Both the position numbers and the translations under genes were made by a program. A model generated the notes under the pieces. It searched no databases and was not told the DNA's origin. It worked only from the letters and a program-made list of their open reading frames with translations. A DNA stretch of 64,000 nt from Albifimbria verrucaria (lineage: Eukaryota; Ascomycota; Sordariomycetes; Hypocreales; Stachybotryaceae), in assembly GCA_020081605.1 (NCBI GenBank), contig JAHREC010000018.1:4836001-4900000 (forward strand), in the 5' to 3' direction. Below are positions 40,542-62,502 of the stretch, piece after piece. Positions within the stretch are counted from its first letter, which is position 1, and each line of letters begins with the position of its first letter.

Positions 40542-40564
40542 CGGTGGCCGAGCTCGGTGGCCGA
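40542..40564. promoter_or_regulatory. Double CGGTGGCCGA motif
   Basis: Two head-to-tail copies, 40542-40551 and 40555-40564, three bases apart, about 0.95 kb upstream of the reductase start. Same word as in the NRPS/oxygenase promoter. Confidence 0.4.
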
Positions 40565-41460: not shown

Positions 41461-42280
41461 ACTCCTAGGACTCACAGTCTGCAGAGCTGTGCTGTTCGTA
41501 CGTCTCATTTGGACCTTATGGATACATAGGGGTCAGGCGAGCTTGCGTCTCGGTCGAATAGTAGAGACTTGTCGTTTGCCATTCGAGCTAGTGGCTACAC
41601 AAGCCCCCTTTCTGGTGGTAATGAAGGTGATAAATATCACTGGGATCCCTAACGCATCAACCCGAATGACATGCAACGAGCTCGTGGAGAGTGCAAACTA
41701 ACTGTAATCATTATAGTGATGCCGAAACCAAAGCGAGTCTTGCGACCCTTCTCTTCCGACTAGTATATGATCTAGGTATCCAGGGTCAACCGCTAACTGC
41801 CAATGATGGCTCAAGTCCATGGGCTTCTTACGCATGGTCTCTCCATTCATGGAGACACTCTATTGATCGAGGACAATTAAGCCGTCCAAGCATGCTCCGA
41901 GTCTAATTTACAGTATCCGTGTTTGCGGAATACTGTGCTACGACCCACGCTTTTTGAATGCTTTCCCACAAGCTGAAGGGAAATCCTCGCCATTCACAGG
42001 TACATTAGGAGTTAGCAGGGACGCCAGCGTTCGTCCCTGCACATCCGCCTAAACGCACTGAGCTTCAGTGTCCACATCGCCAGCAGCCAACCTAGTATCC
42101 TCCGTCTTACGATAACCTACTTGTGGGGAACTTGGCGTTACCCGACTTCCTCTGCGTATCTCTCATAAACTTGAGCTGCAGAATAATCAATCTGAGAACT
42201 TAGGGCTTGATCTCACACCCTGTCCCTTTCTGTGTCACCCTCTAACACGCCCAACTCTTCAACCTTTAAGCTGTATAACC

Positions 42281-43092
42281 ATGTCTCTTGAGGGCAAGGT
42301 ATTTGCAATCACTGGAGGTGCCAGTGGCATTGGCTTGGCAACCGCCAAGGTTATCGCCGAGCGTGGTGGTACGGCCTGCATTGCGGACATCTCGGTGGAT
42401 GCGCTGGCCGATGCGGAAGCATACTTCAAAGAGCGACAATGCAATTTCCTAGCGACCAAAGTCAACGTTGCCAATCGTCAGGAAGTAGAAAACTGGATTG
42501 ATGAGATTGTCACAAAGTTTGGACGCCTTGATGGAGCGGCCAATGTTGCTGGGGTCATTGGAAAAGATCACGGAGTAAAAGCGGTTGCAGAGCTTGACGA
42601 TGACGAGTGGAACAAGATCATGGCTGTAAACCTTACTGGCACTATGTTTTGTTTACGGAAGCAACTTGGGTCTATCGTTGATGGAGGATCCATCGTCAAC
42701 GTGTCTTCCATCCACGGTATCACAGGTAAGTCCTTTCCACTCATGGTGTTGATCGAGCCGCATACTAATGATACCAACCAGGAATTGCAAATCATGGCGC
42801 ATATGCAGCAAGTAAGCATGGAGTTATTGGCTTGACAAAAGCAGCAGCCAAGGAGAATGGCCAAAGAGAGGTCAGGGTCAACGCCATTGCGCCCGGCTCG
42901 ATCTATACGCCAATGATGCAAGGCTGGTGGGATTTGAACAAACGACCTGCGGACGCAGAGTTTTCAGACCCTACAGCATTCAGACGGCTTGGGACACCGG
43001 AAGAGGTTGCAAAGCTCATTGTTTTCCTCTTGGGGCCCGACAGCACGTTTATCACTGGTAGTGTGTATTCCATCGATGGCGGATGGCTGTGA
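42281..43092 (+). CDS. Classical SDR, candidate D-galactose 1-dehydrogenase
   Basis: A 251-residue NAD(P)-dependent dehydrogenase. Exons are 42281-42725 and 42782-43092. It has TGGASGIG (residues 10-17), the NVAGV strand, NVSSI with the catalytic Ser, and YAASK (Tyr/Lys near 156-160), and ends ITGSVYSIDGGWL like most classical SDRs. The family alone does not tell the substrate. I infer sugar 1-dehydrogenase activity because the next genes supply galactose and consume galactonolactone, galactonate and 2-keto-3-deoxygalactonate, and because some bacterial galactose dehydrogenases are SDRs. It would oxidise beta-D-galactose to galactonolactone. No signal peptide, so cytosolic. The reading frame has no break. 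Confidence 0.85.
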
Positions 43093-43458
43093 AATGTCTC
43101 TTGGCAGTGCCTCGCCATTAAGCTAGCATCGGATAGCAAGCAAGCTAGATTTATACCCGAGAGGTCGTACGTTATTCTGTGAGAGTACGGTAAGATGTCA
43201 TATAGAACACCTCTGACAGGGGCGCCACTCGATACAATCCCTGGTGGGTACGGGACACAGCAAAACGGGCATTCTACTGTTATACACACAGGCCAGGGAC
43301 AATTGAGGCATCTAAAATTAGAACGTTGAAATGAATGAGAATTTAGAAGAAGCTATGTACTTAAAAACAAGAATGACAAAAGCTGGTGACTTTGCTAGTT
43401 CCACAAATGAATGACTATATAGCAGAAGTACACACCGAGGAAGGCTCATTGCTAAGGG
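43093..43458. other. Convergent spacer
   Basis: Short AT-rich spacer between the SDR and the galactanase; no gene. Confidence 0.6.
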
Positions 43459-44603
43459 TTAATGGTGTCGTTTTGTCTCTGAAGACTTGCGACGGCACTT
43501 GACTGGTTGTCCAAGGTCTTTGAACACAGAGACACTGTCATGTGCTCGACCGTTCTGGTCAAACATCAAGGAGTAATCGCAGGAAGCCCTGAGTCTGTAG
43601 TTGCGCACCCACGCGGGCTCCCAAACATTGAATCCGGAGGCACCTGCAGCTTCCAATGTCTGCGCCATTCGCTGGAAATAGATTTTCTGGCCTTCGATGC
43701 TGAGTGGGATGTCTCTCTGATCCGGCGCAAACGGGTATTCGGGAGTGTTGCACACGGTCGGCCAGCCAGTCTCGACCACCTGGATCTCTTTGTTGCCGTA
43801 CCTTGCACGCATGGACTGGGCCATCTCAATAAAGTTGGAGAACGAAGCAGTGTCTCCCCAGTATGGGTACATGGAGTGCGCATGAACGTCAAAATCATCC
43901 AAGGACAGCCCGTTCTCGAGCACCATGTCATACCACCACTCCGGCACACCTGCCTCACAGCAGATGGTTAGATGAAGTAGCCGTTTGGGCTTTGGTGATA
44001 ATTTTGACGCTAAAACAGCCTTCGAGGCCGATTTAAGGAGGCGCGCCAAGTTCTGGGGTTTTCGTAGCTGCCAACGGGGGCTAGGATGCCGCTGTTGATC
44101 TCATTGCCCAGGGTAACGGTTTCGGGATTCAGCCCGGCCGCAGCAAACGTGTTCAAAGTTTCGAGCGTGTAGTCGTAAACCGTCTTCTCGAGACCATCGA
44201 TATCTGTGGGCCAGCCTGGGGGATTTCTTGTAGTCCGGGGTTTGTCCACCAATTGCTGTAGTGGAGGTTCAGACCAAACATCAGACCGGCACTGGAAAGC
44301 AGCATTAGTGATTAAGTTGTTCCATACTGAGTGTAAGTCTGCATACTTGGCGGCTCTTTGTGCAAGTTCAAGGTTGTACTGGACGCCATAGTCTCCATCT
44401 GTCACCCAAACACGCTGGCGCAGCATGTTGATACCATTTTCGGCCAGTATCTGCTCCAGAGGCTTGACGGTACCATATTGGTCTTTGTAAACGATCCCGG
44501 CCCGCTCTTCGGTGAGGACCGAAGAAATGTCGGCTCCTTTGTACGTCAATGCAAAGGCAATTGACGACGAGAAAGCAATAGTGGCAAGCCAAACACGAAG
44601 CAT
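43459..44603 (-). CDS. Secreted arabinogalactan endo-beta-1,4-galactanase, GH53 (two C-run losses)
   Basis: GH53 enzymes cut the beta-1,4-galactan side chains of pectic rhamnogalacturonan I. Exons are 44603-44347 and 44291-43459. A signal peptide is present (MLRVWLATIAFSSSIAFA), then LTYKGADISSVLTEERAG. The family-typical LNLHYSNWWTNPGLQ follows the intron. The acid/base Glu is in LGNEINSGIL (about residue 148) and the nucleophile in VVETGWP (about 258). C runs have lost one base near 44222 (IPPGWPTDID) and near 44058-44061 (ENPQNLARLL). With these, the model closes at about 363 residues, usual for the family. The gene is transcribed away from the sugar transporter, sharing a 1.36-kb promoter. 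Confidence 0.92.
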
Positions 44604-45170
44604 TTTAAAGACTAGTGGCTATAAGTGAGCCGGCACAGATTGTTGAAGGCGAAGGGATTAACAACTCGACCTCGCTCAACTCTAGAACGTACTGGCATGT
44701 TCAAGTGATTTATAGTGATTGCCAAACATTCATCTCTTGAAGTCCTCTATTTTGTCCTGGCCAAAATTGTTTGTTTCAGATGACCATATCCGACCCCTCC
44801 ATCCCTCAATTTAAATAAATTGGGATGGCAACATGCATGTCAAATCTAAATAGTTCACGGCAAGTAGACCATGTGCCAGATTCTTGTGTGGCAGAGTGTC
44901 GATCAAGTGAATGGTGAAGGGCAGTCAATTTACTCATTGCATCCATCCAGAAGAGGGCCGAAGGAAAAACCATCGTGATCCGTGTGATTTACTTCTACTA
45001 GTATCACAAGTATCGCAGGGTTTGAAAGAGTGAAGTCGTATAGAGTCAACGCTAACTGGCCAGTAGCTCCACACGGGCGTTCGAGCTATCGGAGATGGCC
45101 AACCATCCCGGACGGCCTCAGTCTCGGTCTTGGTACCAATTCCCGCCGAGGTCCTAACCAATCATACGGG

Positions 45171-45181
45171 GACGGATAAGG
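45171..45181 (+). promoter_or_regulatory. ACGGATAA motif, copy in galactanase/transporter promoter
   Basis: GACGGATAAGG. The ACGGATAA core recurs at 48511-48518 (upstream of the beta-galactosidase) and 54521-54528 (dehydratase/aldolase promoter). Confidence 0.4.
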
Positions 45182-45210
45182 ATTGAAAGCCCCTGTCACG
45201 GCGGCGGCCG

Positions 45211-45249
45211 CTTGCCACATCCGCTTACCGCATCCGCTTGCCGCATCCG
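45211..45249. repeat. Three tandem 13-base units CTTGCCGCATCCG
   Basis: Units at 45211-45223, 45224-45236 and 45237-45249, each with at most two differences. Each contributes an ATCCG half that could serve as a regulator half-site. Confidence 0.85.
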
Positions 45250-45270
45250 TCAACCACATGATTGACGGAT
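45245..45270. promoter_or_regulatory. Perfect 9-base inverted repeat ATCCGTCAA/TTGACGGAT
   Basis: Arms at 45245-45253 and 45262-45270 with an 8-base spacer. A related pair, TATCCGTC/GACGGATA, is present at 54503-54527. Confidence 0.5.
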
Positions 45271-45958
45271 AGCAGTTGTTTGTACCAGCTAGCTCAACTC
45301 ATGGAGTGTAATGCACGGAGAGTTGTGTGATTGGTGAGTTGTCTCTATTCTAGCCTGGGCGACTCTCCAGTCCGGGGCCCCAACAACTGACCATCTGGGG
45401 CTCGTCTCCCGTGAACTGGGATCCGGGGTAGCTGCACCATGACAATTTACTGATGATACTCCCGTTTGTTTATGCAACTACACCCTAGGTTGCACCGTTT
45501 GTGGAAATTCCCAGTCGACATCCAGAATAACTTGGGGGCAAAGTAGGATTTCCTGTTTATCAGTCACAAACCGGGGTGGGCATATCATTAGTTAATGGCA
45601 CGCAAGCAGTTCTTCTCCTGGGACGTGGCCATCCCCGCACGTTGCTCCATGGAGAGAGGCCATGGCACCCCGGACTAGATGTTGGACCTGGTAGTTGTCT
45701 TGAACCTTCTCCCTTGACTATTGTATCTTTATAATCTGGAGAGGCTTGTGCGTTCCCTTGGTTTCCGCATATATATCTGGGTGTCAGACAAGCAGAGTCT
45801 GGGAAAGGGAGATCTTTCCAATCGTGACTGGCTCCAGAACACCTACAGCAATCTTCCTCCAACTCGAAACATTGTGGCCGCAGCGTCTTGTAAAAGCAAC
45901 GCAGGACTTCCAACAGATTTCGTCAAAGCCCCGAGGCACACCAGGCCAAGTTTACATC

Positions 45959-47778
45959 ATGGCGGGTGGTGCACTCCTGTCCAAGGCACGGCAGACGTGT
46001 CGAGGATTGAAGCCCCGTGACCTTGAAAGCATACCTCATTGCGCCTTTGCTGCGTTTGGGGGTGTCTTTTTCGGTTACGATATCGGCTGGATGGGTGGCG
46101 TCTTGGGTATGCCGTACTTCATTTCCATGTATACGGGAATGGAGTATGACTGGGAAACCCACAAGTCAGTCGATAGCACGAAGCCCTTCGCTCTTGGCGC
46201 CTACGAAACCTCTTTGATGACCTCAATTCTCTCCTTGGGTACCTTCCTCGGTGCGCTCGTTGCAGGCGATGTTGCCGATTTCATCGGCCGTCGGCCAACT
46301 ATCATGTGGGGATGTGCCATCTTCTGTGCTGGATGCGTTCTCCAAGTTGCCAGCACAAACCAGTTGGCGTTGATGACCATAGGCCGACTGATTGCTGGTG
46401 GCGGCGTTGGTTTCAACTCGGCCGTGGTTATCTTGTACATGTCAGAGATTGCACCTCGCAAGATTCGTGGTGCGCTGGTGGCAGGATATCAGTTCTGCAT
46501 GTAAGTGTTGTTTCAAGCAGCCCGATTATCAGGCCTTTACTGATTCTTCGCTTTCAAAGCACTATCGGTCTTCTTCTGGCAAACTGCGTAGTGTATGCTA
46601 CCCAGAAGAGAAACGATACTGGATCTTACCGGATTCCCATCGGTATTCAGTTCTTGTGGGCAATCATTCTTGGCGTAGGGTTGTCCTTCCTTCGTAAGTC
46701 CACGGCCCTCTTTCGCTTGTTCAGTTTGAATGTACTTAAACTCCAATACAGCTGAGTCTCCGCGGTTCTTTGTCATGAAAGGTAACACTGAAGCAGCTGC
46801 CTCCGCGTTGTCGTCCATCCGCGGGCAGCCGAGCGATTCTGATTACATCAAGGACGAGTTGGCTGAGATTGTGGCCAATCATGAATACGAGTCCACAATT
46901 ATCCAGCAACAAACCTACCTCGACTCATGGACTTCGTGCTTCAAGGGCTCCGTTTCCCAGGCAAGCTCGAATCTGCGTCGAACTATCCTAGGATTCTGCG
47001 TCCAGGTGAGACCAAGTTACCTCATATAATGTCTAGTAAATTCTAATAGCCATGACAGATGTTCGCGCAAGCCTCGGGCCAAAACTTCATTTTCTACTAT
47101 GGAGTCATTTATTTTCAGCGAATGGAGACTATCGAAAACCCATTTCTTACGTCTTTGATCACGACCTTGGTCAATGTCTGCTCAACGCCGATTGCGTTCT
47201 GGACAATCGAGAAGTTCGGACGTCGCCCTTTACTTATCTACGGAGCAGCCAGCATGGTGGTTACACAGTTCATCGTTGGTATCCTAGGTGTCACTGCAGG
47301 AAAACCAGAATCCAATAACCAAGCTGCCATACAAGCAAGCATTGCTTTTATTTGCATCAACATCTTCTTCTTTGCCACAACCTGGGGGCCAGCTGCTTGG
47401 GTTGTGGTCGGAGAGATCTTCCCGCTGCCTATCCGATCCCGAGGTGTAGGAATCTCGACAGCTTCTTGTTGGCTCTGGAACTGCATCATTGCGACCGTGA
47501 CACCGTACTTGGTGGGCGCAGAAGCTAAGAGCGCCGACCTTGGGCCCAAGGTCTTTTTCATCTGGGGTTCCTTCTGCTGCTGCAGTGCCACATTTGCTTA
47601 CTTCTTTGTCCCCGAGACCAAGGGGTTAAGCTTGGAGCAGGTTGATCGCATGCTAGAAGAAGTTAGTCCACGTAAAAGTGCTGGTTGGGTTCCATCTACA
47701 ACATTCGCTGCCGAGATGGGAGTCACAGAGAAGCCACTGGCAGTTCATGACGAGGTATCTGTTGAAAGGGTGGACTAA
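45959..47778 (+). CDS. MFS sugar transporter (SP family)
   Basis: A 549-residue, 12-helix sugar porter, probably importing galactose or galacto-oligosaccharides released outside. Exons are 45959-46500, 46560-46693, 46752-47005 and 47059-47778, all in phase with no breaks. Family marks: FGGVFFGYDIGWMGGVLGM in helix 1, GDVADFIGRRPT, GRLIAGGGVGFNS, PESPRFF after helix 6, WTIEKFGRRPLL and PETKGLSLEQVD near the end. The start is the ATG giving MAGGALLSKARQTCRGLKP; the frame is open further upstream but lacks a fungal-like start. The substrate is inferred from neighbours, since sugar-porter specificity cannot be read from motifs. Confidence 0.9.
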
Positions 47779-49000
47779 TTCTAGGTCATTTCACAATTGG
47801 AGCTGTTTATGGGGCAGCTATAAGAAGAAACATGTGTCAGTGTTGTCAAATGAGACTGGGTTGTAGGGCATTTATGCAAGGCTCTTTTGGGGGTTCGCCG
47901 ATTAGACGGAGGAGCATTATCGAATCCGCTTATAGGACTCAACCCTACTGGATTTCATGTTCTTTTTCTTGACCTTGTGTAATTATCAAGATTGCAACTA
48001 ACTGTTGGCCTCCCAAGTGGACAATCACCGCGCGCGATAGGTTGTACATCTCGCTTGCCACACCATAGCGGATATTCGAAAGATCACATGTGTCTCATAG
48101 ATGAAGCATTGCATTGAAACTGTCTGCGTAGCTAATTATGACTGCCTAACTGATAATACCAAGATGATCTAAATGTACAATACTCGAGTGATAGCCAAGT
48201 TATCAAAATCTCAATGTCTGTTTCACCACACAATCACAAAATGGAAATGCTCGGTTGGAACATTATCTGGGTTTGGACACATTAATGTCGGCAAGTAGCG
48301 TGACAATGAAGAACACTCCCAATGCAACCAATTTGGTGCTCGATATGTTTACATGGCAGCCTCCTGCGGCAAGGAGTAGTGCCTATGGCCTGTGAGGGGC
48401 AAAGGAGTCCCATTGATACAGTCCATACCTGTGTAATCTGAAGCTCCAGCTTGGTCGATCATGCTCATGATTGTCTGACTTCTGAATTCGTATTGGTGTG
48501 ATGCAACGGAACGGATAACTCTGCATTTCCGTAACGGCAAGTCTAGGGTGAGGAGGGGGAGCATCCGACGGCTATACGTGATGATCCTGCCGTCCCTTCA
48601 CCGGCCTACTTCATTCAATGCGTGGAGACAATGCTAGTGATTGTGCTTGTACCTAAAAATGATATCCTGGGGTAATAAAGTAAGTGATGTTGCATCCGTT
48701 GCAGGATCACGATGCGGAGAAGCCGGGGTTGCTGTGGGGAGAGACGCGGAGAGGTCCTATCCAGCCTTCATGTACACGATGATCCAAAATTTTCGTCAGT
48801 CCATGACTGAGAGTACTGAGGGAAAAGGGTATGCGATTCTTCTGGGCATTTCTTGGTCGAAGATCATCAGTAATGGGTAGCTGTCGGTTATGCTTGTCAT
48901 AAAAACCGAGTTATTTATAAGCCAGCCGGTTGCCGAGACACTTGCCAACTCTAAGGACATCTCCTGCGTCAGCTTAACATTAATTGTGTGGACAGCTATA
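47779..49000. other. Intergenic, promoter of the beta-galactosidase gene
   Basis: Between two plus-strand genes. No supportable gene. ACGGATAA is present at 48511-48518, about 490 bases before the start of the GH35 gene. Confidence 0.55.
48511..48518 (+). promoter_or_regulatory. ACGGATAA motif upstream of GH35 gene
   Basis: Exact match to the core shared with the galactanase/transporter and dehydratase/aldolase promoters. Confidence 0.35.
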
Positions 49001-52000
49001 ATGAAGCTGACTCAGACGCTTGGTAACCTGTTGTCTTGTGCCACCATAATCACCACGGCACTTGCGCAGGAGGATTGGCCCCTTCACGACAATGGACTGA
49101 ATAAGGTCGTCCAATGGTGAGATGGCCATATCCAACCCTTGCTGCTCAATCCTGCTAACGAAACTCCTAGGGACCATTACAGTGTGCAGATCAACGGCCA
49201 GAGGGTGTTTCTCTGGACTGGAGAGGTAATGGGAGTCCCAACACCAAAACATGAGATGAGACTAACCGTCACAGCTACATCTTTGGCGGATCCCGGTTCC
49301 AGAGCTTTGGGCCGACATTTTGCAGAAGATCAAGGCAGCAGGGTAAGCAAGTGCTCGGATCTAGTATGTCTCATGTCCTGCTGACTGGATTTTGGTGCAG
49401 TTTCAACGGCATAGGGCTCTACGAACACTGGGGTAGGGCTAGATTTGTCGCTTCTGCTCCTGGATATGACTGCTAACATACGACAATAGGCTGGCATGCA
49501 CCCAACAATGAAACCCTAGACTTCAACTCCGGGGCACATGACTTTGCCAAAATTTTCGACATTGCAAAAGAACTTGGTCTCTACATCATATACCGGCCAG
49601 GTCCCTACAGTAATGCTGAGGCAAATGGCGGTGGGTTCCCAGGATGGCTTACGACTGGCGAGTATGGCCCCTTCGTGATGATGACCCCAGATACACTGCT
49701 GCGTGGACACGATACTCTGGAGCTGTAGCCGAGTATGTCAAACCGCACCTCATCACTAATGGTGGACCTGTGATCTTCTGGCAACTGGAAAACGAGTACG
49801 GAGTGCAATTCCTTAACCCAGACCTGCGTACGCCAAACCAAAGCGCAATCAATTACATGGAGTTACTAGACAAGAATCATCGTGGCTGGGATATCGATGT
49901 TCCATTCACTGCCAACAACCCCAACATGTGGTCACGGTCTTGGTCCAAGGACTTTTCTGACGTTGGCGGCGAGGCTGATGTCTATGGCCTTGATCACTAC
50001 CCTGCCTGCTGGACGTGCAACTTGAATCAATGCCTTGCAGTGAATGGCGCGGTCGAGCCATATACCGTTTTCGACTACTACACCCATTTTATGGAAGTGT
50101 CCCGGACTCAGCCTTCGTTCCTCATGGAGTTTCAGGGCGGTTCATTCAACCCTTGGGACGGCCCAGCTGGAGGCTGCGGCGAGAACATGGGACCTGATTG
50201 GGTTAACTTGTTCTTCCGCCACAATCTGGCTCAAAAGGTGACAGCGGTGAATATTTACATGCTGTATGGCGGCACAAACTGGGGAAATATTGGCTTCCCT
50301 GAGGTCGGCACGAGTTACGACTACAGTTCCCCGATTCACGAGAGCAGGCTTATTGGAGACAAGTACTCGGAGACAAAGCTCTTTGGCCTCTTCATGCGTG
50401 TTGCACGAGACTTTGCAAAGGTTGAACGCGTGGGCAACAGCACCGACTATTCCACGGATTCAGCAATCTACGCTACCGAGTTGAGGAACCCTGACACAAA
50501 CGGCGCTTTCTACGTCACCCGTCACGAATACTCCCCATCCACTGAGCATACCAAGTTTCGCCTACATGTCTCGACCAGTATCGGCAAGTTGACGGTGCCC
50601 AAATTCGGCTCGATTACTCTGAACGGTATTCAGTCAAAGACAGTGGTCACCGACTTTGCTATTGGCTCATCCGGCAAAAAGCTCATCTATTCCACTGCGG
50701 AAATTCTAACAATTTCCGACTTATCGGATCGCCAAATTATCGTCTTCTGGGCCCCTGAAGGCGAGACTGGTGAGTTCCTGTTGAAGGGTGCCGGCAAGGT
50801 CAATGTTGCCAAAGGCTGCGGGCTGGCTTCCAAGGTCAGTGGAGAGGATGGTCTAACCGTCGCATTCACCGTACACAAAAAGCCCTTGGTCTTGGACTTT
50901 GACAACGGCGTGCAAGCTGTGATTGTGGATAGAGACACCGCATACCGATTCTGGGCACCAACTCTGGACAACAGTCCATTGGCATGGGAGAATACCACAG
51001 GTAAGGTTCATCGCCCTGAAGATCATGCTGTAAACTGACGGCGGGCCTCTATAGTTCTTGTACGCGGTCCATATCTTGTCCGTGGTTCAAAGATTGAGGA
51101 TGACACCATTCATATTAACGGCGACTGGTTGGAGGAAACCGAAATCGAGATCTGGGCTCGCCAAGGAGTTGACAAGGCAACATTTAACGGAGCTGAACTC
51201 GATGTGAAACAAACTAAGTATGGTACACTGATTGCCTCTCTTGCGCCAGCACAAGCTTCCATTGAGAGCGTTCAGACTTCCCTGCCTCCTTTGACGGAAT
51301 GGAAGGTGGCCAACGGATTGCCCGAGATAGCTGCGGACTATGATGATTCCAAATGGGCTGGTAAGTTGAGCTATCGCCTTTACCTCCAAAGAATAGCGAT
51401 GATAACTGAGGCTTTTAGATGCCGACCATATGACCACATCCCATCCTGTTCCACCTGACACATTTCCTGTACTATTTGCGGACGAATATGGATACCAAGC
51501 TGGGAATCTTCTTTGGCGCGGCCGCTTCAATGCAACAGATGGGGACGTCCCGACTTCAGTCTACCTACGCGTCATTGGTGGACTTGCGAGTGGATTCTCT
51601 GCCTACCTCAACGGCAAGTTCTTGGGTGCTTGGCAGGGCAGCATGTTGAACAAGACAGGAGAACTGTCTGCCAACTTCCCCAATGGCACGGTGAAGACGA
51701 ACGCAGAAAATGTGCTATTTGTGATTCAGGACACTATGGGCAAGGAACAACGCGAGGCAGCACTGGATCCTCGTGGTATTTTGACCGCAACGCTGACCAC
51801 CGTATCTGGTTCTGAGGCTGATTTCTCATCCTGGAAAGTGGCTGGAAATGCTGGCGGCAATCACCTGTTGGATCCTGTCCGAGGAACATACAACGAAGGT
51901 GGTCTTCACGCGGAACGGCTGGGCTGGCACTTGCCTGGGTTCGACGACAGTGAATGGGAGTCAGCTTTGCCAGGCGACGGCTTCAAAGGGGCCACGGCAC

Positions 52001-52417
52001 GTTTCTATCGTACCGTTGTGCCGTTGGATCTACCTCGCAACCACGACATTAGTCTAGCCTTCGAACTGCGTCCTCCTCATCGAGCTAAGCTTCGTGCCCA
52101 GCTCTATGTCAATGGGTATCAGTATGGAAAGATCATTCCATTCATTGGGAATGAAATTCAATTTCCCGGTGAGTCTCCTTTACTGTCTCTTTTATGCCTT
52201 TCGGCCAAGCGTGCTAATTAGTGGCTAAGTGATTCCTGGAATCCTCGACTACCATGGAGACAATACCATCGGTCTGAGTGTGTGGGCCTTGGACGAAGCT
52301 GGCGGTGCCGTGGAAGTGAGCTGGAAGGTGCTTGGAGTACATCAATCATCCTATGATCTCTCGTTTGACAGCAAGTACTTGAGGTCCGATTGGACAGACC
52401 GTAGCGAATATGCCTGA
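49001..52417 (+). CDS. Secreted beta-galactosidase, GH35 (one C-run loss)
   Basis: Releases galactose from beta-galactosides, including the oligosaccharides produced by GH53. Eight exons: 49001-49116, 49171-49225, 49275-49342, 49401-49432, 49490-51000, 51055-51360, 51419-52168 and 52230-52417. They give about 1008 residues, the size of fungal LacA-type enzymes. A signal peptide ([13 protein letters not shown]) is followed by [19 protein letters not shown]. The acid/base Glu is in WQLENEYG (about residue 193) and the nucleophile in LMEFQGG (about 302). The C-terminal half holds the beta-sandwich domains ([32 protein letters not shown]). One C is missing in the run at 49669-49672 ([13 protein letters not shown]). 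Family and size are clear. Confidence 0.94.
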
Positions 52418-52818
52418 AAAGGAATTGGGCCGGCATTGACGAGGGCCGCTTCTTAAATTCTTTAGTACGCGATACTAGTTTAAAATACATGGTGCTTCTA
52501 CCCAACTCACGAGATATGCATCCAAGCAGATGTAGATTATGTCCTCCTTTGAAATGGACGCATCGAATGAGACTTAAGGACAGAAATATCGTGATAACAC
52601 GCTACAATACATTAACAAAGTAGTGTGTTATCTTCATTTTAGCACCATGACCTTTGAAAAGAATATCTTAACGGTAATGTAGATGTAGCTACTGCCCTTA
52701 ACACTCTGTGGAATGGTATAGAAAGAACAAGGGCTGAACCCAAGGACACTCAAGCCTTATTATACCCTCAAACATACAAACCACTTAATTCTATAGAAAT
52801 AATGTAACTCTGGATTAT
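52418..52818. other. Convergent spacer
   Basis: AT-rich spacer between the GH35 gene and the dehydratase; no gene. Confidence 0.6.
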
Positions 52819-54127
52819 CTACCATTCTCTAATCTCACCACAAGGGCCCCTGAATTCTGGTGTCACCCAAGCCTCGGACCCGGCGGATAGCTTCCTCACC
52901 TGCGCCTCGTCTATCTCAATGCCTAGGCCAGGTCCAGAAAGCAGCTCTATATGTCCATCTTTCACATTCCAGACTTGAGGGTTGTGGATATATGAAGTTA
53001 TATCTTGTCCTGTATTGTTGTAGTGCATCCCAAGACTCATTTCCTGGATTGCGAAATTCGGCGTCGCGGCATCAACCTGAACGTTGGCGGCCAATGCAAT
53101 TGGGCCCAGAGGACAATGAGGAGCCAACGCGACATCATATAATTCACACAATGCGGCAATCCGTTTCATTTCTGAGATGCCGCCCACGTGGCAGATATCT
53201 GGCTGTAGAACATCGACGCAGCCGGCTTCCAAAAGGGCCGGACATCCCAACGGCTGTAGAGACGCTCGCCAAGAGCAATCGGAACGTCTGTCAGCTGAGA
53301 CATCTGCTTTATAGCATCGATATTCTCTGACAAAAGAGGCTCTTCAAAGAAAAATGGTTCGAGTGGCTCAAGGGCCTTTGCCAGCTGCTTTGCCATGGGC
53401 TTGTGCACCCGCCCGTGAAAGTCGATTGCAACATCCAAACCGACCGCTTTCACAAGCTTTAAACGGTCCACAACTTCATTAACGATTGATGGGGAATCAA
53501 GCCAGCACGTGTCTGCGGTTCCGTTCATCTTTACAGTATGGAAGCCCTGCTCCTTCCGGGCCCGTCTGGAATGGTGCAGTGTCAGTATTTGAAAGCTGGA
53601 CGTCCCGACATGGTAGAATAACGTACGCTTGTTCCTCGACCTCGCTAGGCCTATCTCCACCTATCCAAGAGTACACACGGATTTTGTTTCTCAGCTTTCC
53701 GCCCAGGAGTTGATAGATGGGAACACCCAGTTTTCTAGCTGCACGGGTCATTAGCATGGGCTGTCCTTGGGAGAACCGTCGTCTGGCGCACCTTTCAAAT
53801 CCCACAGGGCAATATCAATCCCGGACAAGGCACTCATAAAAACAGGGCCTCCACGATAGAAACTTGTCCGCCATGACATTTGCCAGATGTTTTCGATGTC
53901 ACTAGGGTCTGATCAGTATGTTGGAGGTACAGTACGATGGCGGAATGGTTACTCTGCGTCAAGCCCGCAATATCTCTTAAACCACGCATCCAGACATCCT
54001 TCTACAGCATTTGTGTGGCCCTCTAGGGATGCCTCGCCCCATCCAACATGGCCATCTTCATCTGTTATTTTGACAAGCAGCCAGCGAGGGGCACCCGAAA
54101 ATACTCCATTGTTGCTATTTTCCCCAT
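52819..54127 (-). CDS. D-galactonate dehydratase, DgoD-like enolase superfamily (two C-run losses)
   Basis: Removes water from D-galactonate to give 2-keto-3-deoxy-D-galactonate. Exons are 54127-53953, 53901-53792, 53738-53627 and 53565-52819, about 381 residues, the length of bacterial DgoD (382). It reads like DgoD throughout: [120 protein letters not shown] and [10 protein letters not shown]. These include the metal-binding Asp/Glu residues and the catalytic His positions. One C is lost near 54091-54094 and one near 53237-53240. The sequence is closer to DgoD than to the L-galactonate dehydratases of the fungal galacturonate pathway, judging from these motifs. Divergent from the aldolase gene. 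Confidence 0.93.
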
Positions 54128-54919
54128 TTTAAGTGATTGGTTGGCCAAGAAGATGATGTGAAAAGTCGTATACCCAAGGTATCCCACGGAGGAGGTATAG
54201 TGTCTGGCGGAAGCAAGTGAGCGACACACCTTCGCGCATCAATATTACACGAGAAAAGCTATCAAAGATTAAGAAGCACTCCACGAATGCTGAAGGCGGT
54301 GCAAAGAAAGACCGAGGTGCGCGAGGCCCGGCAACCAACTACAGCTTCTCCAAAAATGCCCCATGATGATGATGATGATGATTGCCTTGTCCTATGCCAC
54401 GCCTTAACAAGCTTACGGAGCATCTGCGAAGCTTCGCTTTGCTTGGCTCTTGTGCATTGCGCAGTGGAGCTTTTCATGAGACGGAGGACGCTAGTACAAG
54501 CATATCCGTCCGTGGTGTTGACGGATAACGGAAAAGCAGGGGTTTAGAATGGAGGCACGGAAGCACCGAGTGTCGCCGTCCCGTCTTGCCCCGCTGCGGA
54601 GTGCCGAACGGGTACACTAAACGAACTTGGTGATTCGGGTTTAGACCAGATTCAAGGGCCCCAGGCCCTGCTGCATGCCGTTGGAACCAGTAACTGACAG
54701 TAGCTGCCAGTTGGACAATGTCCTGAAACGAAGCTTGTAAGCCATTACCGAGTCTTGAAAGTCTTTACCCATGGCATCACGAGATAACAGTCGCAAACAT
54801 GCCGGGGGTTGGGGGTTAGACTAGACTATTAAACCATAGAAGAAGCCGTCTTCAAGGTCATCCTGGTAGCTACGGCCACACTACGGAGTACCAGGGCCTA
54901 TACCAGCGGCACGTCAAAG
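54128..54919. promoter_or_regulatory. Divergent promoter of dehydratase and aldolase
   Basis: A 792-base spacer between two consecutive pathway steps transcribed apart. It contains the inverted pair TATCCGTC (54503-54510) and GACGGATA (54520-54527), and a CGG-N4-CCG (54597-54606). A (GAT)n microsatellite lies near 54364-54381. Confidence 0.6.
54503..54528. promoter_or_regulatory. Inverted pair TATCCGTC/GACGGATA with ACGGATAA
   Basis: Arms at 54503-54510 and 54520-54527 with a 9-base spacer; the right arm continues as ACGGATAA (54521-54528). This is the same half-site seen at 45171 and 45264. Confidence 0.5.
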
Positions 54920-56019
54920 ATGGCCCCAAGCAAGGAGACCCTACCCATACCACCTTTGGGCGTTTTTGTCCCAGTACCCACGTTCTTCAGGCCTGCTACA
55001 GGCTCCGAGTCTGAAGCCGAGGTAGACATTGATGCGCAAGTCAGACACAGCATATTCCTAGCCAACTCGGGAATCACGGGCTTGGTTCTGCTTGGGTCGA
55101 CCGGAGAAGCCATTCATCTCTCAAGCCATGAACGCGCCCGTCTGGTTGCTAGTGTAAAGGAAGGTCTTGAGGAGGCCGGTTTCCCGGATTATCCCATAAT
55201 GGCCGGTGTGCTCACCAACGGTATTGGGGAGACATTAGATTGGTTAAACGACTACGCCCAAGCAGGCGCACAATGGGGCCTTGTACTGACACCTGGTTAC
55301 TTTGGCAAAGCAGTGACCCAGCAGAGCATTGAGGAGTGGTATACTCGTGTCGCTGAGAAGAGTCCTCTGCCAATCGTAATGTACGGCCCCGATCCATTCC
55401 ACATCTCTACCATGTCATTATAACTTCAGATCCCAGTTACAACTATCCGGGGTGACAAACCAGGTTCTTGTCGAACCGGACACTTATGAGAAACTAGCGC
55501 GCAATCCAAAAATTGTTGGATGTAAAATGTAAAGTCCCCATCTCCGAAATTTACCGTCATGCACTAATGGCTATGTCACTCAGGTCTCATGGCGATGTTT
55601 CGTTGCATGTCCAAGTTTCCCTTGATCCGCGAATTGATCACTCCGAATTCCGCGTCTACAGTGGCTTTGGCCAGCAACTTGGACCCATCGTCCTATTCGG
55701 AGCAGCCGGCGTCATCGATGGCCTCGCTTCATTCTACCCCAAGACGGTTGTAAAACTCATGCAACTTTCACAAGAGAGGCCGAACACGACCAGCGAGTGG
55801 GAAGAGATTCGACGACTACAATACGCCGTTAGCCGCGCCGAAGAATACATAGTGAAGACTGGCATAATTGGTATCCGCGAAGGGATCATACGCCTAACAG
55901 GTATTGGAGGTTTGGAGGGAGGGAGACTTCCTCTGAAGGGTAGGGTTCCGGAGGAAACATGGAGCAATCTCCACGATCTCCTGCTGGCAGACATAGAGAA
56001 GTTAGAGAGATCGCTGTGA
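54920..56019 (+). CDS. DapA-family 2-keto-3-deoxy-acid aldolase (one G-run loss)
   Basis: A class I aldolase of the DHDPS/NAL family, about 329 residues, predicted to split 2-keto-3-deoxygalactonate into pyruvate and D-glyceraldehyde. Exons are 54920-55380, 55437-55528 and 55584-56019. It starts with a pyruvate-binding loop typical of the family (LGSTGEAIHLS, residues near 60). The active-site Tyr lies in YNYPGVTNQ, and the Schiff-base Lys is the one in IVGCK, immediately before the third exon (SHGDVSLHVQVS). One G is lost in the run near 55449-55452 within YNYPGV. The family also contains dihydrodipicolinate synthase, N-acetylneuraminate lyase and the fungal L-KDGal aldolase of galacturonate catabolism, so the exact stereochemistry is inferred from the adjacent galactonate dehydratase. 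Confidence 0.85.
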
Positions 56020-56447
56020 TGGGGTTTCTAGAAAACCGTTACCATCACTTCCTAAGTTATCCCAGTACCACCATTGAGTAGGTGCTTGCTCAAGTCACCA
56101 AGATGAAGTCTCGCTTGGAGGTGTTTTATAATGAATGCAAAGGAAACCCGGAAACAGTTGGCTCCATGGTGCCACAAGCCACATGGTTATTGGGGGAGAA
56201 TATGGAGGGAAAGGGTGCGGGGTCCCAGGGTTCCTCCTACTGTAATCATCATCTTACAGTAGACTACAGTACTGTCATTTAATACAGCTTGGGAACGACA
56301 CGCCCCGGGAAAGACCCCCACATTGCCCCGTGATCTACGCACGCATATTTCCCCACCTCTTTGTGTGGACCGATATCGTCTGAACTTCTCTACTATAGAT
56401 TCTGCTTCATTACCCAGGTTTGCTCCGCCATTCCCAAGCCTCTATAT
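56020..56447. other. Intergenic, promoter of the regulator gene
   Basis: Spacer between the aldolase and the transcription factor, both on the plus strand. No gene; no copy of the ACGGATAA word was noticed. Confidence 0.5.
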
Positions 56448-58749
56448 ATGGAGCTGAACCCAACCTTCTCGCATAACTACCAAGTGGAACCCTACACTTC
56501 TGACGCCCTTCCACTCATGCAACAACAAGCATGGGACAGCAATAGGGTACGCGTTTCTCGGGCTTGTGACAGGTGCAAACGGTGGGAACCACACGCATTC
56601 CGTCCGAGGGTGAGACATACTGATCATTCCATATTGAGTTCAGGAGGAAGATCCGCTGCACGGGAACCCAGCCGTGTGCCATATGTCTGCGGGCCAGCGC
56701 GGATTGCCTCTACTCGGCGCCATACACAAGGGAAGACAGCCTCCCATAACCCGCCTCTCCCATCGCCGCTCGCCTAGAGGCGTTTCAAAACAAGCTCCCG
56801 CTTCAAATGGCAACTCTAACCCGGAGGTCCAGCAAGCATCCCAGGTGCCAGCAAACACGGTGCCAACTCGGGATGCCGACGCTCTGGAACCTCCGTCACG
56901 GGCATCGCCGGAACTTAGCCAGATGGATCTAGAAGGTCATTACGTCGGTCCAGCATCTGGAGTCTCATTTCTTCTTCGAATCCAGAAAAAGCTACACCGC
57001 ACAACATCCAACTTCACCTTTGGTGACATTCCATTGCCGGAGTTTGATCCCACATTCTGTGTTATGCTCTCGAAAGAGGACACTTCTGGTCTACTGCGAA
57101 GATATTTTGACTTCACAGTACCCGTTGATCGGTTCCTCCACAGGCCGACATTAGAGAAATGGCTTAACGAATTCCACGACACAATGGGTGCTATGGCAGA
57201 TGACGATAAAGCTCCGGCCCGGAGGGCTGTTTTGTGGATGATCTTTGCCTTGGCTCAGGAGCATATGAGCAACGAATCGGCGGCGACTAATACCAATAAA
57301 AGGTACGGCAGTACGATCCTCTCCTAAGCTATCGTAACAGAAGGTAACATTACTCTAGCACTCGCTACTTTCTTGCAGCAGACTATCAACTCTCCAAGGA
57401 GCGAGGTTCAGTCAGCCTTACTATCGTCCAGGCGCGCCTATGTCAATGTCTTTGGCTTCTCTCAAGGTCCCGGATAAATCACTGCTGGAGCCTCTTTGGA
57501 ACGGCGGCTCGCCTCGCACTGGCAATTGGTCTTCACCGAAATCGGCAGCCTGATTTTGGCAGTGGTATCACAAATGTCGAAATCGAGTGTCGCAAGCGAA
57601 CCTTTTGGAACGCCTACTGCCTTGACAACTATCTTAGTATCGCTCTTGGGCGGCCTAGGATATTCCATGACGAAGATATAGACCAAGAGCTTCCGTCCTG
57701 CCTTGATGATGATTAAATCGAAAAGGGTCCAGCTGCGCAGCACTTTGGTGGTGGTCAATCTTCTATGCTCGCACCCGTCGCCTACTTCAAGTATGTTTCA
57801 TCGCTCTATCATTCCACACTCCTGGCTAAATCAAGGCCCCCATAGGCTCTCCCGGACAGTGAGCATGATACTAAGGGATTTGTACTCCATCCGTCCGCCA
57901 TCCACAGCGGATCGATGTGCCCTTACTGCCAAATACTCGCAGTGTCTCAAGAGCTGGCGAACAGAAATCCCTCGCTTTCTCGATGCAGAGCATATGGACA
58001 CCGCTGTGTTGATGCCAATCTTTCGACGTCAACGGAATGCCTTAAACCTTGCATATTGGCATACCGTTATCCTTCTCAATCGGCATTTCCTCTTGAGTAA
58101 CTTTGCACGCCTACAACAAGACGTCAGGAGTAAGCGAGAGAGTCCGCACAAAGTGCAGATTGAAGAAGGTGTGAAAGAGTGCTTAAAAGCAGCGATGAGT
58201 ATCGTGGATCGTGTGAACGACCTGACGCAGTCTGGACAAATGTTTCAATCTTTTGGGTAACACAATTTGATTCATTCCCTCAGATATCAAGTCCCTTACT
58301 AACCTGAGTAATAATAGTTCACTTGTTATTTTGCCTTTTCCGCGGTGGTTATCCTTCATGTCTATGTCATCCAGCAGGCATCTTCTTCGTCGACTGGGTT
58401 TGATGATTATCTTTCTGCGGCAGCCCGATGTCAGAACCAGATGGCCAGCATCGCCGAACCAGGGTCGCTAACTTCGCGATACTGTCTTGTACTTGAGGAG
58501 TTGCGCCTTGAAGCAATGAGGCTAATCGAGAAGCAGACAATTTTAGAACAGATGGGGCATGAAAACCACGCAATAGCTATAGCTGCAGGGATGCACGGCG
58601 ACACTTCAGCTCTAAATGGCAATGGAGCGACGGCAGCGATGATGGTAAATTACGGTAATGGAGACACTATGGATTTCTACACAAGCCCTGGCAGCTCAGT
58701 AGCAGATATTGCGAGCTGGATAGAGTTTGAGTCGATGGTGAGTAATTAA
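56448..58749 (+). CDS. Zn2Cys6 transcription factor (two base losses, one in-frame TAA)
   Basis: The candidate regulator of the cluster, about 689 residues. Exons are 56448-56581, 56644-57302, 57359-57790, 57846-58256 and 58318-58749. The DNA-binding domain is CDRCKRRKIRC then QPCAICLRASADC, with Cys at 40, 43, 50, 56, 59 and 66 in the C-x2-C-x6-C-x5-C-x2-C-x6-C spacing, split by intron 1. The middle (about 200-520) is a fungal-specific regulatory domain: ARLALAIGLHRNRQ, ECRKRTFWNAYCLDNYLSIALGRPRI and NLAYWHTVILLNRHFLL. One G is lost near 56730 and one T near 58251-58254. Codon 57714-57716 is an in-frame TAA after CLDDD, with coding continuing after it and no splice way around it. Its location among the pathway genes suggests local control. 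Confidence 0.82.
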
Positions 58750-58846
58750 GGACCGATGTTGATCACATTAGACTCATATCAGGCATCTAGGTTGTTCCAG
58801 GCGTCGGAGGCTTTGAAACCGTATTATACCCCTAATAGTCTACTGG

Positions 58847-60746
58847 TCAAACAATAGATGACTCAAGGCCTTCCAAGATGCAAAGGACTCCTTCTGCGCC
58901 TGGGTCTGGAACCTTATTCCACGCCTCTTGCTCAACATACACCGCCCTACCCAGGGAAGCCTTCATGCCCTTTGTGGCCTCAACCCCGGCTCTGGCGGCA
59001 GATACAGCGTCTTTCAATGTAGAACCGGCAGCCAGCGATTTAACAAAGGGCTCCAGTGCATCCATCATAGTTCGGTCTCCTTGTCGGGCTGGGGTAGCTT
59101 CTTGAAGCTTGGCCAACGCTGTAGATGCTACTTGAACCCATGAACTGGCCCCTAAAGTACCAGGCGAGGCAGTTCTGACCGCCGAAGCTAAAGCTGCGAA
59201 GAAGATGCCGTATATGGCACCAGAGGTTCCATCCATGTTGTTCTCAATTACCTCGGCCAAGTTCACCACGGTCCTGAGGGCATCATTGCTGATGTTTGGG
59301 GACTCAATGTATTCAAGGACGGCTTTCGCGCCTCGGGCAAGCGTGACACCACAATCTCCATCACCCACGTAACTGTCATGCTCTGTGATTCGTGGTTCTG
59401 CGCTGATAACATTGTTGCAAGCCGCTGTTACAGCAGCCTTAAAAACGTCTTGGGTCACTAAACCAACTTGTCAGTGCAGCTTGATTGAGTGGGACTAGAG
59501 GTGACGACATACGCAGGACTCCACTGGACGCTTGATCCAATCCGGCAGACTTATTCGGTTCAGTTTGCGACGTTTGCGATTCCTGGGCAAGATCTGGGGT
59601 TTGAATTGTCGTTGAACCTCCCCAGCCGGGTGCATCAGTTGGCGATTTGATGTACTCCAGGATGTCAGGGTTCGCTTTTAGAAGGGTTATGCTGAACCCA
59701 GGGCCATTCAAGCTGGTCATGTATGCTCCTGATACCACAGAGCTGGGTCTGATTTTCCTCTCATCTGTTGAACACAAAAAGCTTTTAGCATGATTTGAAA
59801 CCGCCGTGATCGGCAGTTTGAGGCTTACCTAGCTGCTTGATAATATTTGTCGTAATTCCACTGAACTCAAGGGGTGACAAGCCGCCCAGGTTGTTGACCA
59901 GCAAGACGACATGCTCTGCATCCGAGAAGTCAACGTAACCTCTGTCCTTGTCATTGAAGTCAAGGAGACGGTCAAGCATGGTGTTGATCAGCGCCGGAAG
60001 TGGTGGTCGTGGGCTCAAGACTTGAGAGCCGGGTTCGTTGTGTATGCCCATGCCGAGCTCGACCTGGTCCTCATCGGAGCTTAGCAGTTTTTCTCTGCCA
60101 GGGATATATACATGATCCAGGGAGACGCCTATTGTCACCAGATTCTGCACAATCTCTTTTCCCAACTTGAGCACATCCGCCAGTGTGACTCCTGGTTGAG
60201 AGCTGTAGGCGCCAAGAATCTTGTGAACGAGGACTGTGCCCGCAAGCCCGCGCCTGCCAACCTTGCCGCTTCTCTCGCGCCCAATGGCCACATCATCGCC
60301 GACAACGAGGACCTCCACGGGGATACCCAAGCTTGCCTTGGCTTTCTCTGCCGCCAGGTGGAAATGGAAGACGTCGCCTGTATAGTTCTTGATGATGAGC
60401 AGAACTCCAGCAGGACGTGTGATGCGCTGAATTGCAGCGGTAATCTGAGCCACACTCGGAGACGCAAATATCGAGCCGGAGACTGCGGCTGTCAACATGC
60501 CCTTCCCTACGTAGCCTGCATGGGCCGGTTCATGGCCGGCGCCACCGCCTGACAATAATGCGACATGTTCATTTGGCAGACTCTTGCGCCAGATTGCTGA
60601 TAGAATGTCAATAAGCTATGAAAGATAATAGGTCCATGATACATACTCTTCTTGGACTTATCCAATACGAGGTCTGGCTGCGTCACAACGAGAGATTCCA
60701 AGGCGCCAAGCACCAGGCTTTCTGTTTCGTCATAAAAGGACTTCAT
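58847..60746 (-). CDS. Dihydroxyacetone/glyceraldehyde kinase, DhaK-DhaL fusion
   Basis: Phosphorylates dihydroxyacetone, and in several homologues also D-glyceraldehyde, with ATP. Exons are 60746-60647, 60596-59829, 59764-59513 and 59457-58847, giving 576 residues with no frame break. The DhaK domain (residues 1 to about 330) has SGGGAGHEPAHAGYVG, NYTGDVFHFHLAAEKAK and GMGIHNEPGSQ, where the His that binds the substrate covalently is expected. The DhaL domain (about 375-576) has the ADP-binding DGDCG (YVGDGDCGVTLARGAKAV) and NMDGTSGAIYGIFF. In this cluster it would convert the glyceraldehyde released by the aldolase to glyceraldehyde-3-phosphate and so link to glycolysis. Divergent from the lactonase gene. 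Confidence 0.93.
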
Positions 60747-61310
60747 GATTGGCTTCAATTACGTAGACTGAAGAGAAATAACAATTTAGTCATGAGTAAC
60801 AAAGCGATTATGGCAGATGGGCTTCCTCAAATGAACAGTGACTTGCGATAACGAAACGGTAAGCCCAATCGCAGCAACATGGTCAATCAAATATGTATGT
60901 TGAAACGGCTATCACTCGGCTTCTTCTAAGGAAAAGTGAACTCTCGGGAAAACACGAAACACATTTTCTGAGATGCCTCGTCCTATTCTTTGGGTTCATG
61001 TTCAAAATGCGGGCTAGGATAACTAGAGACATGGGGAGGAGAAACCAAGTATCCATCATTTCCGGATACTGTACGGCTTCGCCTCGAGAACCTTTCCAGC
61101 ACAGTGCGAGCTGTGCCGAATACTCCGACAGTTAAATGATCTAACGGAAAACCACGCGGAAACCCACACAGGAACACGACTCTACGCTTTAATGGATTCA
61201 GTCTCATTTCGAAATATCGCGGAGTTTAAGCCAGCCTCAAAGCATGAGACCGGCTTTTTAGCTAAAGATAGAAGTCCTTTAAACAAGTAGAAGCGAGCCA
61301 ATATTTCGTC
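60747..61310. promoter_or_regulatory. Divergent promoter of kinase and lactonase
   Basis: A 564-base spacer between two cluster genes transcribed apart. A related but not identical word, CCGGATAC, lies near 61062. No exact ACGGATAA was noticed. Confidence 0.5.
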
Positions 61311-62502
61311 ATGTCCATCTCCTCATCCGCCACCCAGGGTTCATTTACACCGAATCATTGTCCTAGAACTCACCAAATACTTATGAATCCTTACAATGAC
61401 AGAATTAGGGATCTGAAGCAATGGGTGGTCGGGGAGCCCTTTCTTAATCTTCATTGCGTTCTAGGAGAAGGTCCGTATTTCGAAAAGGCAAGCAATAGTC
61501 TCCGGTTTGTCGACATCAGGAAGAAACAGTTACACATCGTTTCACTAGACAACGGTAAAGATTATGAAACCATCCAGCTGGATGAATCTATTTCAGTCAC
61601 CGCTGACATCGAGGGAGTGGATCCGACACAAAGAATTCTTGTTGGTCTGAAGTATGGACTGGCTATCTTGGACCGCTCTCGAGGAACGTACGAATATATT
61701 CAATTTTTTGAACATTTGAAGAATGATAGAGTAAGAAGTAATGATGGTGCTGTTGACCCGGCCGGACAATTCTGGCTTGGAACCATGACAGACTTTGGAA
61801 AGGAACCCTTTCGAGCCGAAGGTACAAAAAGGATGGCTCTTACATTCCTATTCATGCGACATATATGCCACGTATTAAATAGATTACTGATTTTTTACAA
61901 CTTATTCCCAGATGTATAGGTGCCCTGTACTGCATCAAACCAGGCACAAGCACAAAGGCTTTGGGTGGACTCACGGTCCCAAATGCACTCGGGTGGTCTC
62001 CTGATGGCAAGACCATGTACTTCACGCACACCATGACACGGCAAGTTCTGGCTTTTGACTATTCCTTTCTAGAAGGAAGTATCTCCAATCAGCGAGTCTT
62101 CTATCAACATGCAGGCCCTGGAGAACCGGATGGCTTCCGTATCGACGTCGAAGGAAACCTATGGCATGCTATATATGGCGAGGACGAGGTGAGTTTACAG
62201 CTCGATATGGCTGCCTCTCAGTTCTTTGCCTTGGACTGGTAGAGCACAGTTGCACGAGATGTTTTCAACTTACATCATTGCAGTTTTGAAAATTTCCCTG
62301 AGGGCAGAATCATTGGAGAAGTCAAGTTACCAACTCGGAACATCACCTGCACGCAGTTTGTTGGGACTGAGCTGTTCATTACATCTGCAGGAGATCCGGA
62401 GGAAGCAATCAGAGCCGAGAATACGGCGGAGGACTGTTCCGTGTCGATGTCGGCATCGAGGGCTTAGAGCCATTCAAGTTCAAAAATGTGAACGAAGCCT
62501 AG
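61311..62502 (+). CDS. SMP-30/gluconolactonase-type sugar lactonase (one base loss)
   Basis: A six-bladed propeller lactonase of about 346 residues, predicted to open D-galactono-lactone to galactonate. Exons are 61311-61821, 61920-62188 and 62243-62502. The family's metal ligands are visible: Glu in VLGEGPYFE, Asn in VPNALGWSPDGKTMYF and Asp in GEPDGFRIDVEGNLW; SNDGAVDPAGQFWLGTM is the usual strand between them. One base (probably A) is lost near 62425, before the last propeller strand (GGLFRVDVGIEG). The ATG at 61383 (MNPYNDRIRDLKQW) is a second possible start and fits homologues better in length; 61311 is the first in-frame ATG. No signal peptide, so cytosolic. Confidence 0.88.

Follow-up and report, generated by a model that had tools for sequence, protein, structure and literature searches.

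Nine adjacent genes of Albifimbria verrucaria as a putative galactan-utilisation cluster with an oxidative route to pyruvate

Which substrate is served by nine adjacent genes of the ascomycete Albifimbria verrucaria that encode, side by side, two glycoside hydrolases, a sugar porter, a set of sugar-acid enzymes and a regulator? The genes lie in a stretch of 64,000 nucleotides (C15:4836001-4900000 of a genome of 48.4 Mb in 41 contigs), called the window below, and positions are those of the window unless a contig is named. On spliced, hand-made gene models the nine genes are contiguous and span 42281-62502, from the start codon of a short chain dehydrogenase/reductase (SDR) gene at 42281 to the stop codon of an SMP-30 gene that ends at 62502; the nine adjacent genes and both end coordinates agree exactly with an earlier note made on this DNA. 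The order is SDR (+), glycoside hydrolase family 53 (GH53, -), major facilitator superfamily porter (MFS, +), glycoside hydrolase family 35 (GH35, +), dehydratase (-), aldolase (+), Zn2Cys6 regulator (+), DhaK-DhaL kinase (-) and SMP-30 (+). The family calls, which the note had made from motifs, are backed for all nine by Pfam and, for the dehydratase and the kinase, also by NCBIfam. We propose, with a probability of about 0.7, that this is a galactan-utilisation gene cluster encoding a complete oxidative route to pyruvate and glyceraldehyde 3-phosphate. The families, the D-galactonate type of the dehydratase and the pairwise linkage of dehydratase, aldolase and SDR relatives were computed; the substrates of SDR, lactonase, aldolase and porter are what we infer, as are secretion, regulation and the complete route.

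In the proposed route, secreted GH53 and GH35 enzymes would cut beta-1,4-galactan to D-galactose, which would be imported by the MFS porter. The SDR would oxidise D-galactose at C1 to a lactone, the SMP-30 protein would open this lactone to D-galactonate, and the DgoD-type enzyme would convert D-galactonate to 2-keto-3-deoxy-D-galactonate (D-KDGal). An aldolase of the dihydrodipicolinate synthase (DHDPS) family would then cleave D-KDGal to pyruvate and D-glyceraldehyde, the latter being phosphorylated to D-glyceraldehyde 3-phosphate by the DhaK-DhaL kinase, and the Zn2Cys6 protein would act as the local regulator. The scheme is firmest for the dehydratase and the hydrolases; the roles of dehydrogenase, lactonase, aldolase, porter and regulator are proposed. 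From the complete galactan-to-pyruvate pathway read here earlier, the gene content, the gene order and the dehydratase type hold, while the substrates of the SDR, the SMP-30 protein and the aldolase stay putative.

The dehydratase gene (52819..54127, minus strand, 2 frame breaks) encodes a protein that scores 506.5 bits on NF010624, the NCBIfam galactonate dehydratase model with a cut-off of 311, and falls below the cut-offs of the NCBIfam models for D-mannonate, L-talarate/galactarate, L-rhamnonate, arabinonate and gluconate/galactonate dehydratases (101 bits on the L-rhamnonate model, cut-off 393). Its nearest solved chain is 3rr1, a "Putative D-galactonate dehydratase" (368 bits, residues 2-381 aligned), with which the motifs DFHGR, EEP, GER and APHC line up. 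A score over the equivalog cut-off combined with a full-length alignment to a solved member places the protein with DgoD, and among the matches listed its best relatives are from Paramyrothecium (86% identity) and Clonostachys (85%). Introns, the Zn2Cys6 protein and best matches of this kind speak for an ascomycete, probably one of the Hypocreales. As judged from sequence, the cluster dehydratase is of the D-galactonate type and not of the L-rhamnonate type, so that the DgoD-like enzyme claimed previously outlasts the comparison with rhamnonate, one of the other acids that could have undone it.

The hydrolases point to the polysaccharide. The product of the GH53 endo-beta-1,4-galactanase gene (43459..44603, minus strand; PF07745, 228 bits; 2 frame breaks) aligns with the solved beta-1,4-galactanase 1hjs over residues 18-344 of 363 (304 bits), which counts as full length, and that of the GH35 beta-galactosidase gene (49001..52417, plus strand, 8 exons, 1 frame break; PF01301, PF10435, PF13363, PF13364) aligns nearly full length with the solved beta-galactosidase 1tg7 (581 bits). 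Both N-termini are hydrophobic and, by eye, putative secretion signals. Between the two genes lies the MFS sugar porter gene (45959..47778, plus strand; PF00083, 394 bits), intact with 4 exons.

The aldolase (54920..56019, plus strand; PF00701; 1 frame break), proposed to act on D-KDGal, belongs to the DHDPS (DapA-like) family and matched 7 NCBIfam models, in each case below the cut-off; its best solved match is 3qfe, a "Putative dihydrodipicolinate synthase family protein", and a listed relative with 64% identity (P0061) is labelled in its source "L-threo-3-deoxy-hexylosonate aldolase like protein". The SMP-30/gluconolactonase-family protein (61311..62502, plus strand; 3 breaks), proposed to be a D-galactonolactonase, scores 208 bits on PF08450, has the luciferin-regenerating enzyme and regucalcin as its closest solved relatives and was matched by no NCBIfam model. 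The kinase (58847..60746, minus strand; PF02733, PF02734; intact, 4 exons) passes TIGR02361, the model of single-chain ATP-dependent glycerone kinases, with 665 bits over a cut-off of 575, and its closest solved relative is 26vk; a triose kinase of this kind (dihydroxyacetone/glyceraldehyde) would suit glyceraldehyde as the aldolase product.

The SDR, lactonase and aldolase families leave the end of the sugar chain unfixed, and the same oxidative route could in principle take another input: L-arabinose or D-fucose, which are D-galacto at C2-C4, or free D-galactonate, with the galactanases serving arabinogalactan side chains. A second locus of this genome, C8:1337008-1344010, bears on this. Its genes are those of an aldolase (63% identity over the longer matches), a dehydratase and a regulator paralogue, together with an aldo-keto reductase that takes the place of the kinase, and no match to the cluster-type SDR, SMP-30 protein, kinase or MFS porter was found there, which shows that the core can occur by itself; the adjoining exons look by eye like a further MFS transporter gene, one piece of which was run against Pfam without a match. 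That no assayed member was found on the SDR's side of its tree (see below) also favours another input. The GH53 and GH35 genes inside the cluster and the score of the dehydratase on the galactonate-dehydratase model argue against it, and we regard it as unlikely.

The SDR gene (42281..43092, plus strand; PF13561/PF00106) is intact, has one intron and encodes a protein of 251 aa that is very probably a sugar 1-dehydrogenase. Its matches to solved structures are generic. Among the matches listed it shares 80% identity with an SDR from Bionectria ochroleuca and 63% with TRIREDRAFT_60517 of T. reesei, which is FDH1, the nearest assayed relative found. FDH1 is an NAD-dependent L-fucose dehydrogenase; 12 further sugars including D-galactose were offered, and D-arabinose and L-galactose are the only ones named as active in the part of the paper at hand (PMC12370193). 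An L-fucose or L-galactose type route, in which the SDR would act like FDH1, could draw on this identity and on the proposed fungal L-fuconate route, which likewise has a dehydratase and an aldolase. We consider it highly improbable. In an unrooted tree of the window SDR and 120 listed relatives, a branch with support 98/92 separates 24 from 97 rows, and the window SDR is among the 24 and FDH1 among the 97. No assayed member was found among the listed relatives on the 24-row side. Three alignment positions separate the two sides at 75% or more; at position 157, right after the tyrosine of YxxxK, the window side has Ala (21/24) and the FDH1 side Asp (91/97). The cluster dehydratase is, moreover, DgoD-type, whereas the L-fuconate route is proposed to run through the L-galactonate dehydratase LGD1, and by Pfam an alpha-fucosidase is not among the nine genes. 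The FUR1/FDH1 system of T. reesei resembles the galactan cluster in its homologous SDR and in the co-location of the dehydrogenase gene with a regulator gene; it differs in that FDH1 lies on the other side of the SDR tree and D-galactose is not named among its substrates in the part available, and in that its dehydratase LGD1 and aldolase LGA1 are shared with the galacturonate route (PMC12370193).

Does the neighbourhood recur in other fungi? Linkage was read from contigs of equal length and from locus tags in the protein hit lists, which hold the best 120 matches each, of 510 for the aldolase, 7999 for the dehydratase and 7985 for the SDR; equal contig size is an indirect sign, as Biscogniauxia marginata and Aspergillus karnatakaensis both have a contig of 197764 by coincidence. 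Aldolase and dehydratase relatives are on equal-sized contigs in 19 of the 27 species named in both listed sets, against 1.6 expected if the genes were placed anywhere in a 35-Mb genome. Their locus tags follow each other directly in Coniothyrium glycines (004605/004606) and differ by two in Pestalotiopsis fici (08543/08541) and by 21 in Venturia effusa (003851/003830). Among the SDRs that group with that of the window, an equal-sized contig with a dehydratase is seen in 4 of 8 species (0.3 expected, listed matches), with consecutive tags in Aspergillus nanangensis (FE257_001270/001271), and in Pyrenochaeta the SDR and the aldolase are on one contig, contigs of this pair having been compared by eye. 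Five of the six SDRs labelled in the tree as dehydratase- or aldolase-linked belong to the 24-row side. Four more, from Penicillium lagena, Pestalotiopsis fici, Truncatella and Cladobotryum, were left unlabelled; all are on the FDH1 side with a dehydratase on the same contig, these contigs measuring 3.9-8.1 Mb and the tags being far apart in the first two. The labelled link of A. steynii is as weak as those four, because its contig is also 3.9 Mb. On contigs under 2 Mb there are four linked SDRs on the window side (C. rosea, A. nanangensis, Macrophomina and, with the aldolase, Pyrenochaeta) versus one on the other (Conoideocrella).

In a quick tree of the dehydratases, the window copy is in a group of 22 rows (support 92) that takes in all 4 of the SDR-linked relatives labelled. 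The C8 copy is in a group of 71 rows, to which 13 of the 19 aldolase-linked ones belong, as does the dehydratase of Conoideocrella, which carried no label in this tree. Aspergillus, Fusarium, Clonostachys, Macrophomina and Aaosphaeria have window-type dehydratases that cluster together, contrary to species relationships, so that a transfer of the module between classes of fungi is possible.

The Zn2Cys6 gene of the cluster (56448..58749, plus strand; PF00172, PF04082) contains one in-frame TAA in addition to 2 frame breaks. It has a DHDPS-family gene as neighbour, and so do its two nearest paralogues in the genome, which makes three such loci: that of the window, that on C8, and C13, where the paralogue at C13:493835-495783 adjoins a DHDPS-family gene and an MFS gene (C13:491969-496068), possibly a third sugar-acid locus. 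Because of the linked relatives elsewhere and these regulator paralogues, the cluster neighbourhood is, as far as gene order can tell, confirmed as more than a chance assembly. A third close aldolase is at C41:4346116-4347152, and a third dehydratase, DgoD-type but more divergent and on a long branch, at C15:4913180-4914444, about 13 kb past the window end; no aldolase relative was found in the 30 kb to the right of the window. In N. crassa the locus tags of gar-1 and lga-1 are neighbours (PMC13158570), and to ask whether the aldolase is an orthologue of GaaC/LGA1 an aldo-keto reductase was therefore sought beside the other DHDPS-family genes: it is present at one of the 11 loci searched (9 DHDPS-family, 2 dehydratase-family), on C8. 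This enzyme could reduce either glyceraldehyde or galacturonate, which a search of the PDB did not tell apart, so that C8 may act on a different sugar acid. About 5 kb from the C8 locus there is an Alginate_lyase2 gene with a repetitive Thr-Asn-Pro-Pro tail (C8:1331139-1332197).

One could also see two unrelated neighbours here: sugar-acid genes (those for dehydratase, aldolase, regulator, kinase, lactonase and SDR) that happen to adjoin ordinary galactan hydrolase genes under separate regulation. A further GH53 gene exists at C15:3047039-3047931, and the conserved linkage concerns SDR, dehydratase and aldolase. The GH53, MFS and GH35 genes, however, sit between the SDR and dehydratase genes rather than at one edge, and of 6 upstream regions, taken from both parts of the cluster, 5 contain the motif CGGATA. 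These six regions hold 9 sites against 2.0 expected, two of them in the common intergenic region (54128..54919) from which the dehydratase and aldolase genes diverge and which would be their shared promoter region. CGGATA was chosen post hoc from many k-mers, five other 6-mers having scored higher, and as a promoter motif of the cluster it is only a lead. We hold the two-neighbour explanation to be very unlikely, and return to the galactan cluster.

Are all nine genes alive? In six of them (GH53, GH35, dehydratase, aldolase, regulator and SMP-30) there are 11 frame breaks and one in-frame stop; the SDR, MFS and kinase genes have no frame break. Taken at face value, the breaks would mean that the cluster is decaying and several of its genes are dead, and some conserved genes are indeed open, namely the Hsp70 gene at C15:2599961-2601685 (over profile positions 28-598) and two of the three Rpb2-type domains in the genome, the third being split at a possible intron. 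On the other hand, the Hsp70 gene of the window (29435-30951, plus strand) changes frame near 30340 and those on C8, C10 and C36 are each split between overlapping frames; since several Hsp70 genes show such changes too, assembly error is likelier than decay. In the cluster genes, family motifs are retained on both sides of the breaks, which sit at short single-base runs where inspected by eye. Most of the breaks are likely assembly errors, and we give decay very little credence.

Several observations weigh against the galactan-utilisation cluster proposed here. The break density in the cluster genes is somewhat above that in the Hsp70 and Rpb2 genes compared, and the in-frame TAA of the regulator leaves the frame unchanged and is without explanation. 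The nearest assayed relative found for the SDR is an L-fucose enzyme with D-galactose not named as active. The FDH1-side SDRs also share contigs with dehydratases (5/19 rows, 2.0 expected, listed matches). The links in other fungi are pairwise: conserved co-location, which the earlier note had set as a check, was found among SDR, dehydratase and aldolase two by two and at the C8 locus, but all three together were seen in no other fungus among the matches listed, and linkage elsewhere was looked at for these three genes. None of the 120 best aldolase matches (of 510) carries the name of Clonostachys or Paramyrothecium, the best matches for the dehydratase. Finally, six putative genes of the route in A. 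niger are not induced on galactose in the reference strain (PMC12744346).

We nevertheless regard the cluster as most likely holding, by homology and position, candidates for the elusive fungal D-KDGal aldolase and for a fungal D-galactose dehydrogenase. A wider picture, to which we would give slightly less than even odds, is that of a dedicated galactan-to-pyruvate cluster of filamentous fungi in which the SDRs of the 24-row group would be the D-galactose dehydrogenases of fungi and form the sister group of the L-fucose dehydrogenases, the DHDPS-family enzyme the missing D-KDGal aldolase, and the regulator one of a family that recurs beside DHDPS-family aldolases, in a module that may have passed between fungal classes.

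How does the cluster compare with known routes? In bacteria, the De Ley-Doudoroff pathway combines DgoD with a KDGal kinase and a phospho-aldolase. The cluster has a dehydratase of the DgoD type as well, but a KDGal kinase and a phospho-aldolase are not among its nine genes by Pfam, and a DHDPS-family aldolase and a triose kinase are found instead. The L-rhamnose cluster of fungi has another dehydratase type than the DgoD type of the galactan cluster. That cluster (LRA genes, RhaR) is, similarly to the one described here, a clustered non-phosphorylative sugar oxidation with a regulator of its own; it differs in the sugar, and polysaccharide hydrolases are not named with it in the abstract of PMC5674754. 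In the fungal D-galacturonate route (gaaA/gaaB/gaaC) a dehydratase and an aldolase lead to pyruvate and glyceraldehyde, as is proposed here, but this route works on the opposite enantiomer, 2-keto-3-deoxy-L-galactonate, and its L-glyceraldehyde is reduced to glycerol (PMC11219438).

The closest counterpart is in Aspergillus. An in-silico sugar model of A. niger comprises a galactose dehydrogenase, a 1,4-lactonase, a D-galactonate dehydratase, an aldolase and DAK, that is, the same five steps as the cluster; its genes were assigned by orthology, and for the penultimate step, that of the aldolase, the enzymes are called "still elusive" (PMC9781776). In A. verrucaria the genes adjoin those for galactan hydrolases, a porter and a regulator, and a candidate for the aldolase is among them. 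In A. niger mutants on sugar beet pulp, 5 of the 6 putative route genes are up (PMC12744346). For A. terreus, a D-galactonate dehydratase and a D-KDGal aldolase (Elshafei 1991) are related in a 2024 review (PMC11219438), and the route has been built in M. thermophila with the A. niger dehydratase (PMC8113861). The activity in Aspergillus that the earlier note mentioned is borne out by that review's account, and the novelty in fungi that it suggested is narrowed, the route being already in print as Aspergillus activity and candidate genes. A gene cluster for a fungal De Ley-Doudoroff route was not found in the literature searched, passages of PMC12028159, PMC13158570, PMC3852267, PMC5372324, PMC12997857 and PMC5701360 included; clustering in A. 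niger may be described in Aguilar-Pontes 2018 or Motter 2014. The fungal route itself is known as activity and as dispersed candidate genes, to which this locus would add a gene cluster and an aldolase candidate.

Around and between the nine genes a few features were noted. To the left, a multidomain gene (31698-36136, minus strand; Condensation / AMP-binding / PP-binding / NAD_binding_4) is split over two frames. Next to it are a gene for a 2OG-Fe(II) oxygenase (37233-37898) and one of the NAD-epimerase family (38671-39606); 31698-39606 looks like a small secondary-metabolite locus adjoining the galactan cluster. Just right of the cluster, 62503-63500 is AT-rich (39% G+C), with a TpA/ApT ratio of 0.9-1.1, about equal to that of 40501-41500 on the left. 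Minus-strand stop-to-stop frames of at least 120 aa extend into intergenic spaces at 45560-45922 and 52218-52601.

What would the cluster mean for the fungus? Matches to the galactokinase and GalT families are present in the genome, along with three kinase (DAK) loci and two GH53 loci, and the Leloir route is probably kept; as the genome also has these Leloir-type genes, the cluster would be an additional galactose route. The fungal oxidative route has so far rested on old extract assays and orthology guesses, with its aldolase called elusive. A compact cluster offers named candidates for every step, dehydrogenase, aldolase and regulator included, and makes the route directly testable. If the proposal is true, it would account for the way in which some fungi might use galactan in the absence of Leloir enzymes; a route to pyruvate from a single locus would be useful for engineering fungi on pectin- and galactan-rich waste.

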